Assembly (NCBI GenBank): GCA_023419995.1
Contig: JAEZXF010000536.1
Location: forward strand, 1 to 18,945
Direction: 5' to 3'
Length of the DNA: 18,945 nt
DNA from: Pseudomonadota bacterium
GTDB taxonomy: Bacteria; Pseudomonadota; Alphaproteobacteria; Rhizobiales; Rhizobiaceae
Positions 2,628-10,211 of the stretch are shown in pieces. Positions within the stretch are counted from its first letter, which is position 1. The number at the start of each line of letters is the position of its first letter. Under the pieces are notes generated by a model. The model saw only the letters and a list, made by a program, of their open reading frames with translations. It did not search any database and was not told the DNA's origin. The position numbers and the translations under genes are program-made.

Positions 2628-3242
2628 TCACCCCCTGCCCCAGCGATGCTGGGGCGGCTGGGAATTCGGGTTCTCGCGGCGGCGGCGGAAGGTCATCAGC
2701 AGGCCGAAGAAGCCGATCGCCATCATGCCGTAGCCGATCGGCGGCACGGCCTCGTCGATGTCCCTCGTGCCGCCGATGAGGACGAGGTCGACCGTGGCCA
2801 TGTCGATGTCGACGTCGCCGGGACCGAAGGTGAAGACGTAGGGCGATTCACCCGGATAGTAGAGCGGCCCCACCTCCACCGGGTAGATGCGGCCGGGGAG
2901 CTGCGGGCTGACGATGCGCGGCTCGACGCCGTCGAGCGTGAAGTAGTGCACGATCTCGGTGCGGCCGTTGGACGAGACCGTCAGGGTCATGACGGTCGAT
3001 CGCTCGGCGCCCTCGACGGGCCGCGGCGTCGATATCTCGGTCCTGACCAGAACCTGCGCCTGGTCGGTCGGCAGCAGGATCTCGACGGGCTGGAAGCCGG
3101 AGGCGCGGTCGTAGGCGCGCCAGCGGCCGATCTCGAAGCCGGCACCGCCCTCCGCCCAGGGATAGATCAGGCCGAGCAGGACGCCGACCGCCAGCACGGC
3201 GAGAAAGACCAGCCGCAGGAGCCAGCGCAGCAGCGTTCTCAT
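2628..3242 (-). CDS. Unknown protein with N- and C-terminal membrane segments, coupled to holC
   Basis: I do not recognise this 204-aa protein. The chosen ATG at 3242 overlaps the holC stop (ATGA) and is preceded by AGAAGG; an in-frame ATG at 3257 is less likely. Residues 1-28 are a short basic start plus a hydrophobic segment (LVFLAVLAVGVLLGLIY), either an uncleaved anchor or a signal sequence. Residues 29-165 are polar and beta-rich, ending with VDIDMATVDLVLIGGTRDIDEA. Residues 168-184 form a second hydrophobic segment followed by FRRRRE, so the C-terminus should be cytoplasmic and the middle domain periplasmic. Position after pepA-holC suggests co-transcription, but nothing links its chemistry to DNA replication or peptide cleavage. 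Confidence 0.8.
   Translation of the reverse strand: MRTLLRWLLRLVFLAVLAVGVLLGLIYPWAEGGAGFEIGRWRAYDRASGFQPVEILLPTDQAQVLVRTEISTPRPVEGAERSTVMTLTVSSNGRTEIVHYFTLDGVEPRIVSPQLPGRIYPVEVGPLYYPGESPYVFTFGPGDVDIDMATVDLVLIGGTRDIDEAVPPIGYGMMAIGFFGLLMTFRRRRENPNSQPPQHRWGRG
2638..2654. repeat. Short perfect hairpin at the 3' end of the unknown membrane-protein gene
   Basis: CCCCAGC (2638-2644) and GCTGGGG (2648-2654) form a perfect 7-bp stem with a 3-base loop. It sits between the convergent crotonase and unknown-protein genes, inside the last codons of the latter. No T run follows on either strand, so it is not a standard intrinsic terminator. It may slow RNA decay or help end transcription, but that is a guess. 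Confidence 0.3.
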
Positions 3243-3688
3243 GCCTTCTTCTCCCATCGCCGCTCAGGCGTCTGCTGCCAGTAGGTCGCGCTGTGGCCGG
3301 CCGCCTTCACGGCCTTCCAGTGCTGCCGCGCCTGCGCCACCTGCGCCTCGTCGTGGCCGTCGAACATGAAGACGGCCCGCTCGTAGGCCGACAGGTCGGG
3401 CGGGCTGGCGCCGTCGACGAGAAAGCGGATGCGCGCGCCGTTGGGGTTGCCCTCGCCGCAGGTCAGCAGCACCGGCTGGTGCTGCGGGTGCTGGTCGTGC
3501 TCGGTGCCGTGGGCGAGGAAGGAATCCTCGCGCCAGGTCCACAGGTGCTGGTCGAGCACGTCGCGGCGCTCCTCGCCGCCGACCTGCACCACCGCGCGCC
3601 AGCCGCGCTCGACGCTCTTTTCCAGAAGCGGCGGCAGCGCCTCCTCCAGCGTCGATTCGGTCAGGTGATAGAACAGCGCCTCGGTCAT
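3239..3688 (-). CDS. holC: DNA polymerase III subunit chi
   Basis: This encodes a 149-aa protein, close to the 147 aa of E. coli chi. Chi links the clamp loader to single-stranded DNA-binding protein at the replication fork. The start MTEALFYHLTESTLEEALPPLL is the usual alphaproteobacterial form, and the chi-family blocks LW.W...SFLAHG and the later FLVDGA, AVFMFDG and HWK stretches are present. The start at 3688 fits the family's usual N-terminus but has only a weak GGGCGG upstream. An in-frame ATG at 3700 lies just 3 bases after GGGAGG, too close to be ideal; it would add four residues. The gene lies 24 bases after pepA and overlaps the next gene by ATGA. The pepA-holC pairing is also found in E. 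coli. Confidence 0.88.
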   Translation of the reverse strand: MTEALFYHLTESTLEEALPPLLEKSVERGWRAVVQVGGEERRDVLDQHLWTWREDSFLAHGTEHDQHPQHQPVLLTCGEGNPNGARIRFLVDGASPPDLSAYERAVFMFDGHDEAQVAQARQHWKAVKAAGHSATYWQQTPERRWEKKA

Positions 3689-3712
3689 GGCCGCCCGCAT
3701 GAGCCTCCCGGT

Positions 3713-4543
3713 TCAGCCCTCGTAGTGATCGCGCACCAGCCTGTCGAGCAGCCTCACCCCGAAGCCCGAGCCCCAGGACTGGTTGATCTCGGAGCTGGGC
3801 GAGCCCATCGCCGTGCCGGCGATGTCGAGATGCGCCCAGGGGGTGTCCTTGACGAAGCGCTGGAGGAACTGCGCCGCCGTGATCGAGCCGGCATAGCGGC
3901 CGCCGGTGTTCTTCATGTCGGCGTTCTTGGAATCGATCATCTTGTCGTATTCGGGGCCGAGCGGCAGCCGCCAGAGCTTCTCGCCCGTGTCGCGGCCGGC
4001 GGCGAGGAGCCGGTCGGCCAGCTCGTCGTTGTTGGAGAACAGGCCGGCATGCTCGTTGCCGAGCGCGACGATGATCGCCCCGGTCAGCGTGGCGAGGTTG
4101 ACCATGAAGCGCGGCGCGAAGCGCTCGTTGGCGTACCAGAGCGCGTCGCCGAGCACGAGGCGGCCCTCGGCGTCGGTGTTGATGACCTCGATGGTCTGGC
4201 CGGACATCGAGGTGACGATGTCGCCGGGCCGCGGGGCGTTGCCGTCGGGCATGTTCTCGACCAGACCGATGATGCCGATGACGTTCGCCTTGGCCTTGCG
4301 CGCGGCGAGAACGTGCATCAGGCCGGTGACGGCGGCCGCGCCGCCCATGTCGCCCTTCATGTCCTCCATGCCGCCGGCCGGCTTGATCGAGATGCCGCCG
4401 GTGTCGAACACAACGCCCTTGCCGACGAAGGCGACGGGCTGGTCCTTCGGCTTGCCGCCGTCCCAGCGCATGACGACGAGGCGCGGCGGACGGATCGAGC
4501 CCTGCGCCACGCCGAGCAGCGCGCCCATCTTCAGCTTGCGCAT
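3713..4543 (-). CDS. PepA catalytic fragment, possible restart product
   Basis: An ATG directly follows the TAG, so terminating ribosomes could restart here and make a 276-aa protein with the whole M17 catalytic domain, including [15 protein letters not shown] and [15 protein letters not shown] stretch four or so bases upstream is only a partial ribosome-binding site. Codon use and protein sequence show no decay. Whether it is made, folds or forms hexamers without its N-terminal domain cannot be told from sequence. Confidence 0.6.
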
Positions 4544-5197
4544 CTACTTCTCGGTCAGGATCTCGACCTTGACGCCGAGCGCCTCGAGCTCCCTGGCCCT
4601 TGCCGCGAACTCGAGCGTGCCGAGTACGTTGGCCGGCTCGTTGACGAGATCGCGCGCCAGGAGCACGCCGTCGGCCACGGCCTGCGCGGTGGCGAAGGCG
4701 CGCCTGGCGGCGGTCGGGTTGGCGCACAGGACCGTCACCCTCGTCGGGCCGCTCGCCTTGCCGTTGTCCTTCCGGGTCTTGTACCGGTCGAAGACGTAGG
4801 AGTTGAGCACAACGCCCAGCGCCAGCGCGGCGACGTCCTCGGGCGAAGGGGATGCGCCCGCCACGTCGACCAGGATCGAGACGTCCTGCGCCTTCTTCGA
4901 TGCGGCGAACGCCGCGCCGCCGAGCCGGCTCCATGCCCGCTCGTCGAGGGCGTCGGGCTTGCCGACGCCGAGCGCCACCACGCGCTCGCAGGCCGCGCCG
5001 TGCGGCGCGATGAGGTCGAGCGACGCGGCGAGCTTGCCGGTGAAATCGGCGACGGAGAACGCCCTGGCGAGCTGGCCCTGCGGGTCGACCGCGGCGGCCG
5101 ATCCGGCGAGCCCCCCGCCTTCCGCCACGAGCACGACGGCCGCCCCCTTCTTCGGCGCGGCGATCTTGGCGAATGCGATGGTGGGGCGGACGGACAT
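4544..5197 (-). CDS. PepA N-terminal fragment ending at the TAG
   Basis: This is the part of pepA translated if the TAG at 4544-4546 is obeyed: 217 residues covering the N-terminal macro-like domain and the linker, ending VEILTEK. In PepA this domain helps hexamer assembly and, in E. coli, DNA binding; it holds no active-site residues. Alone it cannot be a peptidase. Confidence 0.6.
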   Translation of the reverse strand: MSVRPTIAFAKIAAPKKGAAVVLVAEGGGLAGSAAAVDPQGQLARAFSVADFTGKLAASLDLIAPHGAACERVVALGVGKPDALDERAWSRLGGAAFAASKKAQDVSILVDVAGASPSPEDVAALALGVVLNSYVFDRYKTRKDNGKASGPTRVTVLCANPTAARRAFATAQAVADGVLLARDLVNEPANVLGTLEFAARARELEALGVKVEILTEK

Positions 5198-5409
5198 GGG
5201 CGCTTCCATGATTGGGGGCTGGGGAATGCGGCATCGGGTCGCTTTCCCGCCGGCTGCGCGCAGGGGTGCCGCTGGCGGCGGAGAAGTGCGTTATCCTTGG
5301 GGTTTCGCGCATTTTCGTCCGGGCCGCAAGCCCGCAGCAGGCTTCGCGCGGTATGCCTCGCCGATGGCCGCCTTCCCGGCGGCGGCAGATGAGAGACGCG
5401 GCGTTAACC

Positions 5410-6774: not shown

Positions 6775-7859
6775 TCGGCTTCGTCCTCGGGCGCTACTTC
6801 TTCCTGCGCTACATCGCGCTGACCTTCTGGTTCTTCATCGGCGCCGCCGCCATCGTCTTCATCGTCAGCTTCACCGAGATCAGCGGCCAGATCGGCGCGG
6901 CGGTCGAGAACGCGGCGAGCGCGGCGCTGATGATCGCCGCCCTGCAGACGCCGATGATCATGCAGCAGGCCGTGCCGTTCATCGGCCTCGTTTCCGGCAT
7001 CGTCACGCTGGTGGCGCTCAACCGAAAGTACGAGCTGGTCGTGGCGCGCGCCGCCGGCATCTCGGCTTGGCAGTTCCTGACGCCGATCTGCCTCGCCGCC
7101 TTCACCTACGGGCTGGTGACGCTGTTCGTCCTCAACCCCATCGCCGCCGCGAGCTTCGAGCGGGCGCAGGCGCTGGAGGCGGACGCGCGCTCGGGAGGGG
7201 CCGCGCCCGGCGTGCAGCCCGGCACACCGTGGATCAAGCAGCGCACCGACGAGGGCGAGACCATCATCGGCGCGAAGACCGCGCTGAACCAGGGGCTCGA
7301 CCTCGCCGACGCGACCTTCCTGCGCATCGGCGACGACGGCTCCGTCACCGAGCGCATCGACGCGGAGCGCGCCTATCTGCGCGACGGCTACTGGGAGATC
7401 ACCGGAGCCCAGCGCATGATCGAGGGCGAGCCGCCCGTCCCGGTCGAATCGATCCGGATCGCCACCAACCTGGTGCCGGAATACGTGCTCGAACGGCTGG
7501 TGCGGCCGGAGATGATTCCGATCTACGAGCTGCCGCGAAAGATCGCCGCGGCCCGCTCCTTCGGGGTCCGCGCCGACGCCTTCGCCACCCATTTCCACTC
7601 CCTCGTGGCGCTGCCCGCGCTGCTCGTCGCCATGGCGCTGATCGCGGCGACGGTGTCGATGCGATTTGCGCGCATGGGGCAGTCGGCGACGATTATTCTG
7701 GGTGGCGTCCTCGCCGGCTTTCTGCTTTATGTCGTCTCGGTTCTGGTCAAGGCGTTCGGCAGCGCCGGATTCGTGCCGCCCGTGGTGGCGGCCTGGTTCC
7801 CGGTTCTGGTTGCCGGTTTCTTCGGGGTGACGTTCCTGTTGTACAAGGAGGACGGCTAG
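6771..7859 (+). CDS. lptG: LPS export ABC transporter permease LptG
   Basis: This is a 362-aa protein, close to the 360 aa of E. coli LptG. It begins MIGFVLGRYFFLRYIALTF at an ATG overlapping the lptF stop, so translation is probably coupled. It has three N-terminal spans, a periplasmic domain (about residues 125-255) and three C-terminal spans. The segment ELPRKIAAARSFGVRADAFA before the last spans matches the coupling region of the family, which contacts LptB. Together with LptF it forms the lateral gate for LPS. A longer frame reaching back to 6663 exists but would overlap lptF by more than 100 bases and adds nothing family-like. Confidence 0.93.
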   Translation: MIGFVLGRYFFLRYIALTFWFFIGAAAIVFIVSFTEISGQIGAAVENAASAALMIAALQTPMIMQQAVPFIGLVSGIVTLVALNRKYELVVARAAGISAWQFLTPICLAAFTYGLVTLFVLNPIAAASFERAQALEADARSGGAAPGVQPGTPWIKQRTDEGETIIGAKTALNQGLDLADATFLRIGDDGSVTERIDAERAYLRDGYWEITGAQRMIEGEPPVPVESIRIATNLVPEYVLERLVRPEMIPIYELPRKIAAARSFGVRADAFATHFHSLVALPALLVAMALIAATVSMRFARMGQSATIILGGVLAGFLLYVVSVLVKAFGSAGFVPPVVAAWFPVLVAGFFGVTFLLYKEDG

Positions 7860-7877
7860 GTGGAGGGCGAAGGTGCG

Positions 7878-10211
7878 ATGATTCGCAGACGCGCCCGCAT
7901 TGCACACCTGGCGGGGGCGACCGCGCTTGCCTGCCTGCTGGCGGGTGTCGCCCTGCCCGGCATCGCCGCCGCGCAGGACATCGACCTCGACCGCATGGCG
8001 ACCTCGCCCGACGCAGAGCTCCTGCTCGAAGCCGACACCATCATCTACGACAACGACCGCAACACCATCACCGCCGAGGGCGGGGTGCGGATCGACTATG
8101 ACGGCCACCGCCTGGTGGCGCAGCGCATCGTCTACCACCGCGCCACCGCGCGGCTCGTCGCCAGCGGCGACGTCGAGGTGGTCGACCGCCAGGGCACCCG
8201 CATCCACACCGACGAGATCGACGTCACCGACGATTTCCGCGACGCCTTCGTGCGCACCCTGCGCGTCGAGACCGTGGACAAGACCTATTTCGCCGCCGAC
8301 AGCGCCGAGCGCGAGGACGGCGAGGTGACGACGTTCAACTACGGCGTCTATACCGCCTGCGAGCCCTGCCGCGAGCGGCCGGACAAGGCCCCGCCATGGC
8401 GCGTCAAGGCGCAGAAGATCATCTGGAACGGCAAGGAGAAGACCGTCCGCTTCCAGAACGCCAGCTTCGAGCTGTTCGGCCTGCCGATCGCCTACCTGCC
8501 GTTCCTCGAGCTTCCCGACCCGACGGTGAAGCAGAAGTCCGGTTTCCTGATCCCCGGCTACCGCCGGTCGACCTCGCTCGGCCACGGCGTCACCGTTCCC
8601 TACTATTTCGCGCTGTCGCGGACGGCGGATCTGACGGTCAAGCCGACCTGGTATTCGCGCCAGGGCTTCCTCGGCGAGGCCGAGTGGCGCCAGCAGTTCG
8701 ACAATGGCGGCTATTCGGTGACGGTCGCCGGCATCCGCCAGCGCAGCCCGGAGGCCTTCGTCGCCGGCTCGAGCGACGACGAGCGCACGCGGGCCATGGT
8801 CGGCTCGAAGGGTGCGTTCCGCATCAATCCGCGCTGGACCTTCGGCTGGGACGTGATGGCCCAGACCGACAAGGTGTTCTCGCACCGCTACGGCATCGAC
8901 GGCTACGAGTCGGTGCGGCGGACGAACCAGATCTACCTCACCGGCCTGAACGAGCGGAACTATTTCGACCTGCGCTTCCAGAAGTTCAACGTGCAGGAGA
9001 CGGTGCCGGACACCCATCCCTCCGCGCGCGACCCCAAGCAGCCCTGGGTGTTGCCGGTCCTCGACTATTCCTACACGCCCGACATGCCGGTCGCCGGGGG
9101 CGAGCTGAACGTCGACGTCAACGTGACCAGCATCCGCCGCGACGTGCTGGACGTGGCGGCCGTCGGCAATCGCGTCACCGGCATCGAGGGCGGCGCGAAC
9201 CGGGTGACGGCCGAGGCCGAGTGGAAGCGGTCGTTCATCACCGCCGGCGGCCTGATGCTGACGCCGATCCTGCATGCGCGCGCCGACGGCATCGGCACCG
9301 ACTACGAGGGCGGCTCCGCCGCGGCGATCAACGCCGCCTTCCCGCTTTCGACCGACCTGCGCTCGTCCTATTACCGCGCCACCGCGACGGCGGGCATGGA
9401 AGCGCGCTGGCCGTTCCTGTTCACCACGGCGGCTTCCAGCCACGTCGTCGAGCCGATGGCACAGGTCTTCGCCCGGCCGGACGAGCCGCACGGCGACCGC
9501 GTCGGCATCCCGAACGAGGATGCCCAGAGCATGGTGTTCGACGCCACGACGCTGTTCGAGCGCGACAAGTTCTCCGGCTACGACCGCATCGAGGGCGGCG
9601 TGCGCGCCAATGTCGGCGTGCGCTACTCGGGCGCGTTCGCCAATGGCTGGTCGACCAATGCGCTGTTCGGCCAGTCCTTCCACCTTGCCGGGACCAACCC
9701 CTACGCCTCGCCGGACCTCGTCAATGTCGGCGCGTTCTCCGGCCTCGAAAGCAAGCGTTCGGACTATGTCGGATCGGTCGGGCTGCGCAGCCCGGACGGG
9801 CTGTCGCTCGCGGCCGGCGCGCGCCTCGACGAGGAGGATTTCGAGCTGCGCCGCACCGACGTCGCCGCCAGCTACGCGTCGCGGCCGGTCAGCGTCTCGG
9901 GCGTCTATTCGTTCATCGAGGCGCAGCCCGACTACGGCTATGCGACGGATCGCCACGAGGTCCGCGGCAACGCCAGCGTGCGCGTCCACGACAACTGGCG
10001 CATCTTCGGCGGCGGCACCTACGACCTGACCAGCGAGGTTCTGGTCAGCAAGTCGATCGGCTTCGCCTATGACGACGACTGCTTCGCCTATTCCCTGTCG
10101 ATGACAGAGTATGAGAGCCCGACGACGGGCGAGCGCAGCCGCAGCCTCGGGTTCAGCGTCTCGCTGCGCACCATCGGCGATTTCGGAAGCACCTCGGACG
10201 CGCTCGACTAG
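7878..10211 (+). CDS. lptD: LPS-assembly protein LptD, outer-membrane barrel
   Basis: LptD (777 aa) is the outer-membrane barrel that inserts LPS into the outer leaflet with the lipoprotein LptE. I chose the ATG at 7878, which has GAAGG four bases upstream, over a GTG at 7860 that abuts the lptG stop. Residues 1-32 are a signal peptide (RRRAR, hydrophobic core, GIAAA before Gln33). An OstA-like jellyroll follows (LLLEADTIIYDNDRNTITAEGGV), then a long beta-barrel domain with alternating aromatic strands. The mature protein has three cysteines: Cys161 and Cys164 in CEPC near the end of the jellyroll, and Cys735 in DDDCFAY near the C-terminus. E. coli has four in two disulfides. The gene precedes surA, whose product helps fold such barrels. 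Confidence 0.93.
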   Translation: MIRRRARIAHLAGATALACLLAGVALPGIAAAQDIDLDRMATSPDAELLLEADTIIYDNDRNTITAEGGVRIDYDGHRLVAQRIVYHRATARLVASGDVEVVDRQGTRIHTDEIDVTDDFRDAFVRTLRVETVDKTYFAADSAEREDGEVTTFNYGVYTACEPCRERPDKAPPWRVKAQKIIWNGKEKTVRFQNASFELFGLPIAYLPFLELPDPTVKQKSGFLIPGYRRSTSLGHGVTVPYYFALSRTADLTVKPTWYSRQGFLGEAEWRQQFDNGGYSVTVAGIRQRSPEAFVAGSSDDERTRAMVGSKGAFRINPRWTFGWDVMAQTDKVFSHRYGIDGYESVRRTNQIYLTGLNERNYFDLRFQKFNVQETVPDTHPSARDPKQPWVLPVLDYSYTPDMPVAGGELNVDVNVTSIRRDVLDVAAVGNRVTGIEGGANRVTAEAEWKRSFITAGGLMLTPILHARADGIGTDYEGGSAAAINAAFPLSTDLRSSYYRATATAGMEARWPFLFTTAASSHVVEPMAQVFARPDEPHGDRVGIPNEDAQSMVFDATTLFERDKFSGYDRIEGGVRANVGVRYSGAFANGWSTNALFGQSFHLAGTNPYASPDLVNVGAFSGLESKRSDYVGSVGLRSPDGLSLAAGARLDEEDFELRRTDVAASYASRPVSVSGVYSFIEAQPDYGYATDRHEVRGNASVRVHDNWRIFGGGTYDLTSEVLVSKSIGFAYDDDCFAYSLSMTEYESPTTGERSRSLGFSVSLRTIGDFGSTSDALD

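Follow-up and report, generated by a model that had tools for sequence, protein, structure and literature searches.

An in-frame amber codon interrupts an otherwise well-preserved pepA gene in a Rhizobiaceae contig

The interrupted gene and its closest described counterparts

PepA is a peptidase of the M17 family that carries the domains PF02789 and PF00883, in this order, and is described by the models NF002077 and PRK00913. The gene reported here lies in a window of 18,945 bases, which is the whole of its contig, and it has the same domains in the same order and at the same length as PepA, but TAG stands in place of one codon and no single full-length chain would be made from it under the standard code. 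Two other kinds of described system come close to this gene. One is the coupled gene pair. PMC10666635 reports that translational coupling depends on genes that overlap or lie a very short distance apart, and that overlaps of 4 or 1 nt are the commonest. As in such pairs, the stop and the start in pepA are adjacent and on the same strand, but the start here is a Met codon that the relatives have without the stop, and the signal upstream of it is only average. The other is the recent nonsense pseudogene, or strain-private null allele, with which the gene shares a single stop, no further decay and uninterrupted orthologues, but here the base call could be in error and the stop abuts an ATG that perhaps allows a restart. 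A search of the literature for leucyl aminopeptidase or PepA with a premature stop, a split or reinitiation gave no title on such a case, and one for restart in the lac repressor found nothing.

Across the junction, the pepA frame on the minus strand reads ACC GAG AAG TAG ATG CGC AAG, and the in-frame stop occupies positions 4544..4546, where the sequence-only reading had placed an amber codon. The N half (4547..5209, minus strand) runs from the M17 N-terminal domain (PF02789, E 3.1e-23) through the interdomain helix into the beginning of the catalytic domain, while the C half (3713..4543, minus strand), which has 276 amino acids and ends in TGA, is most of the catalytic domain (PF00883, E 6.1e-116, profile positions 43-309 of 310). 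That the halves join without a frameshift, as had been claimed, is borne out by the NCBIfam model NF002077, which is covered from position 1 to 223 of its 501 positions by the N half and from 225 to 500 by the C half, and the gap between them is the one codon that is held by TAG. Both M17 domains are present, with PF02789 in the N half and PF00883 in the C half, and the continuous polypeptide of about 495 amino acids that is seen in the uninterrupted relatives is not. The likely start of pepA is the ATG at 5197 (MSVRP), and counting from there to the final TGA gave the same single frame of 494 codons that had been reported; an alternative ATG upstream, at 5209, would add 4 codons. Solved M17 relatives, for example 3h8e and 1gyt, match both halves. 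An adjacency that the earlier reading did not mention is that the TAG is abutted by an ATG (4541..4543, minus strand) to give TAGATG; this ATG, a possible restart codon, is Met in most relatives.

Directly downstream of pepA is holC (3239..3700, minus strand), which codes for the chi subunit of DNA polymerase III (NF004347, with 228.5 bits where the cut-off is 132). Beside holC, the protein encoded at 2628-3257 on the minus strand has only a distant resemblance to NF047381 (type IV secretion effector BspB), with a match of 54.6 bits that is far below the cut-off of 350.

The junction codon in relatives

The best 80 of 524 relative loci were compared with the window. In all 80 of these loci pepA is uninterrupted and the junction codon is a sense codon, coding for Glu in 71, Asp in 8 and Ala in 1. 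In 79 of these 80 loci at least 470 codons, counted from where the match begins, can be read without a stop, and the locus L076 has an early stop upstream of its ATG, after which 497 codons follow. Three database searches gave at least 354 proteins, and both halves could be placed in 257 of the 354 listed; the residue at the site in these 257 is Glu in 180, Ala in 54, Asp in 15, Gln in 3, Thr in 2, and Val, Ser and Lys in 1 each. It had been proposed that one base change turned either CAG or GAG into the stop. The glutamate codon is favored by 71 of the 80 loci, whereas glutamine stands at the site in 3 of these 257 listed proteins.

The nearest genome found is that of the Hyphomicrobiales MAG PRO1 (locus L001, genome G001), which is collinear with the window along the compared stretch with a DNA identity of 83-90%. 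The pepA gene of this genome is 88% identical to that of the window at the DNA level, and at the protein level the identity is 80% in the N half and 94% in the C half. Among the matches listed, the closest intact protein is the 495 amino acid PepA of an Aquamicrobium sp. MAG (P0122), which is 89.9% identical to the N half and 97.5% identical to the C half and has Glu at the site. The source of the contig is an Aquamicrobium-like bacterium of the Rhizobiales.

P0121, the uninterrupted PepA encoded in the L001 genome, was also used to search 101 genomes of the family that were drawn from a larger group. A match with an E-value of 1e-100 or better was found in 97 of them, and none of these 97 strong matches has an internal stop; a few of them are partial, such as the one in G088 that starts 10 bases from the first base of its contig. 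The other four genomes have only more distant M17 proteins with 38-44% identity and partial coverage. The E-value filter could drop a gene that is broken into two weak pieces, and on inspection no pair of weak pepA pieces was seen below the filter in these four genomes. A close PepA orthologue is missing now and then in the family. With 80 of 80 loci and 97 of 97 genome matches uninterrupted, the window gene has one of the marks of a nonsense pseudogene or null allele, namely, a premature in-frame stop where the relatives compared have the gene whole.

The N half of the window is the sole member of its 90% cluster, which comes from one contig, and the next match is 58% identical; the C half is likewise alone in its cluster, in searches whose length ranges for the two halves lie outside that of full-length proteins. 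Apart from the window's own two halves, P0039 (41% identity, from a source with no contig data) is the only one of the 354 listed proteins whose end falls exactly one residue short of the junction; P0043, P0087 and P0092 end at most 2 residues from that point, and six more (P0252, P0276, P0283, P0285, P0294 and P0311) start at the Met after the junction. P0039 and the six C-only proteins may be fragments, gene calls at contig edges or independent breaks. The TAG itself was seen once, and it is a weak lead that breaks at this junction might recur elsewhere.

Preservation of the two halves

Of the columns that are otherwise invariant among 23 close full-length relatives, the window gene keeps all 68 in the N half and all but 1 of the 174 in the C half, in agreement with the earlier statement that neither half has decayed. 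The lone departure is a change of Q to P at position 104 of the C half, and 11 of the 23 intact relatives themselves depart at one or more invariant columns of the C half. Differences found only in the window number 2 in the N half and 1 in the C half, against 1 and 1 that are found only in P0122. The dN/dS ratio to L001 is about 0.27 for the N half and about 0.13 for the C half. Eight further genes of the window span 0.16-0.42; in this set, the stretch taken for lptG extended some 36 codons ahead of the likely start of that gene, and surA was truncated where L001 ends. Since the invariant columns are kept and dN/dS is low, pepA appears to be still under normal constraint or to have lost it only very recently. 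An older pseudogene was ruled out on the same two grounds.

Explanations for the stop

The explanation that we favor, with a probability of roughly 0.5, is that a single-base nonsense change, very recent and private to a strain or to the sample, took place in an ordinary M17 gene. The glutamate codon that is present in most relatives would have become TAG by one base change, and this change would be real and so recent that further decay has not accumulated. If so, the full-length enzyme would be lost and the N fragment would be without the M17 active-site motifs, which presumably lie in the C half, while ribosomes that restart at the abutting ATG might yield a small amount of the C fragment. 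A second M17 gene was found in all eight genomes of the nearest genus that were searched, and therefore a real loss of pepA might be tolerable. In one of these eight genomes, G393, the second gene is in two pieces (C1:1146727-1147628) that overlap and match profile positions 2-73 and 74-307, which looks like a frameshift in this paralogue. A point against a private nonsense allele is that all 97 strong matches are open and a broken copy is thus unusual in the family. In addition, the stop aside, there is only one departure at an invariant column, and so there is no independent sign that pepA is dead.

It is quite possible, if on balance doubtful, that the TAG is instead a consensus error or a minority variant in a metagenome-type assembly and that pepA is intact in the population, the TAG being a wrong or rare call. 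This would fit the sequence equally well, and it would fit a contig of only 18,945 bases, a stop that occurs once among the proteins searched, and the uninterrupted pepA of the relatives compared. The change from the commonest codon of the relatives to TAG is a single transversion, and PMC12390751 describes transversions of this class as a product of oxidative damage. The other odd change, Q to P at position 104 of the C half, is also a singleton and could be a second base error. On the other hand, the TAG is outside any homopolymer run, in eight further genes the alignment to the frames of L001 runs unbroken along their length, and the NCBIfam models of pdxA, rsmA, gmk, yicC, fabF and acpP are covered almost end to end. 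Since the neighboring genes are unbroken and nearly fill their models, the contig does not look error-rich. That we lean towards a real allele rather than a consensus error rests on this clean state of the other genes and on general expectation. Thus, recent loss of function and sequence error, two of the three readings that had been offered for the stop, both stand, but the third, a suppressed or recoded codon, does not fare well. In this third reading the TAG would be decoded as a residue, through either a suppressor tRNA or a signal for read-through, and the two intact halves and the frame that is open for 276 codons past the TAG are what could be expected of it. However, TAG is an ordinary terminator on this contig, where lptG, lptD and mltG all end in it, and lptD of L001 ends in TGA instead, as expected for an ordinary stop. 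Because TAG is a normal terminator here and the 80 relatives compared have sense codons at the pepA site, recoding was rejected as a likely explanation, and it is the one to which we give the least credence. No tRNA gene was found within the 18,945-base window. In the stretch 7857-10211 (plus strand), the frame of lptG, which ends in TAG, continues open for 783 codons through lptD, and therefore LptG and LptD would become one protein if the TAG were read through.

The ATG next to the TAG raises the question whether PepA is a functional split enzyme, with termination at the TAG, a restart at the ATG and assembly of the two chains into an active enzyme. We consider this improbable, and the stricter form of it, in which the TAG-ATG junction truly exists, has become fixed in the lineage and, by termination and reinitiation, makes PepA a two-chain enzyme split inside its catalytic domain, more improbable still. 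The start follows the stop immediately, as in a termination-reinitiation pair, both halves are conserved, and P0039 and the six proteins that begin at the Met have their ends where a split enzyme would have them, although these may be artefacts of fragmentation. A restart at the abutting ATG is physically plausible; PMC6728339 notes that a ribosome halted by an artificial stop inside a gene is able to start again at an internal Met close by. However, the abutting ATG codes for Met in 78 of the 80 loci (best 80 of 524), where there is no stop, and is Leu in 2, and since the Met was already common to the relatives the stop-start junction came free with the mutation. The anti-SD energy upstream of the ATG is -3.0, which is average because about half of the internal in-frame ATGs compared (46 of 91) equal or exceed it; these 91 came from 13 genes of the window with the pepA halves counted apart, and lptG, lptD, gmk, acpP and fabG were left out of the set. 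An evolved restart site was rejected on this count. Moreover, the stop is shared by none of the 80 loci, and thus neither a restart signal beyond chance nor a conserved arrangement was found.

The position of the break in the fold also argues against two working chains. In an AlphaFold model of an intact relative (mean pLDDT 77.3, pTM 0.85, with residues 211-220 averaging 93), the residue replaced by the stop is Glu 219, which would put the break in a short helix (217-222) that comes after a strand (211-215), past the long helix 162-187 and ahead of the helix 226-231. PF00883 begins 42 profile positions before the break, and this together with the model places the break inside the catalytic domain. 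The C piece would then be without the strand 211-215, and a working two-chain enzyme is unlikely if the model is correct. If the split proved real and functional after all, nature would have supplied an M17 enzyme in two chains, together with a clean example of restart at a stop codon that has only just arisen.

A recent private nonsense change thus remains our preferred reading and is the simplest one. As it stands it is of little consequence, since mutation and assembly routinely produce isolated nonsense changes of this sort, and no new mechanism is needed. The lesson is that when a gene looks intact but for one stop it should be compared with the reads before recoding is proposed.
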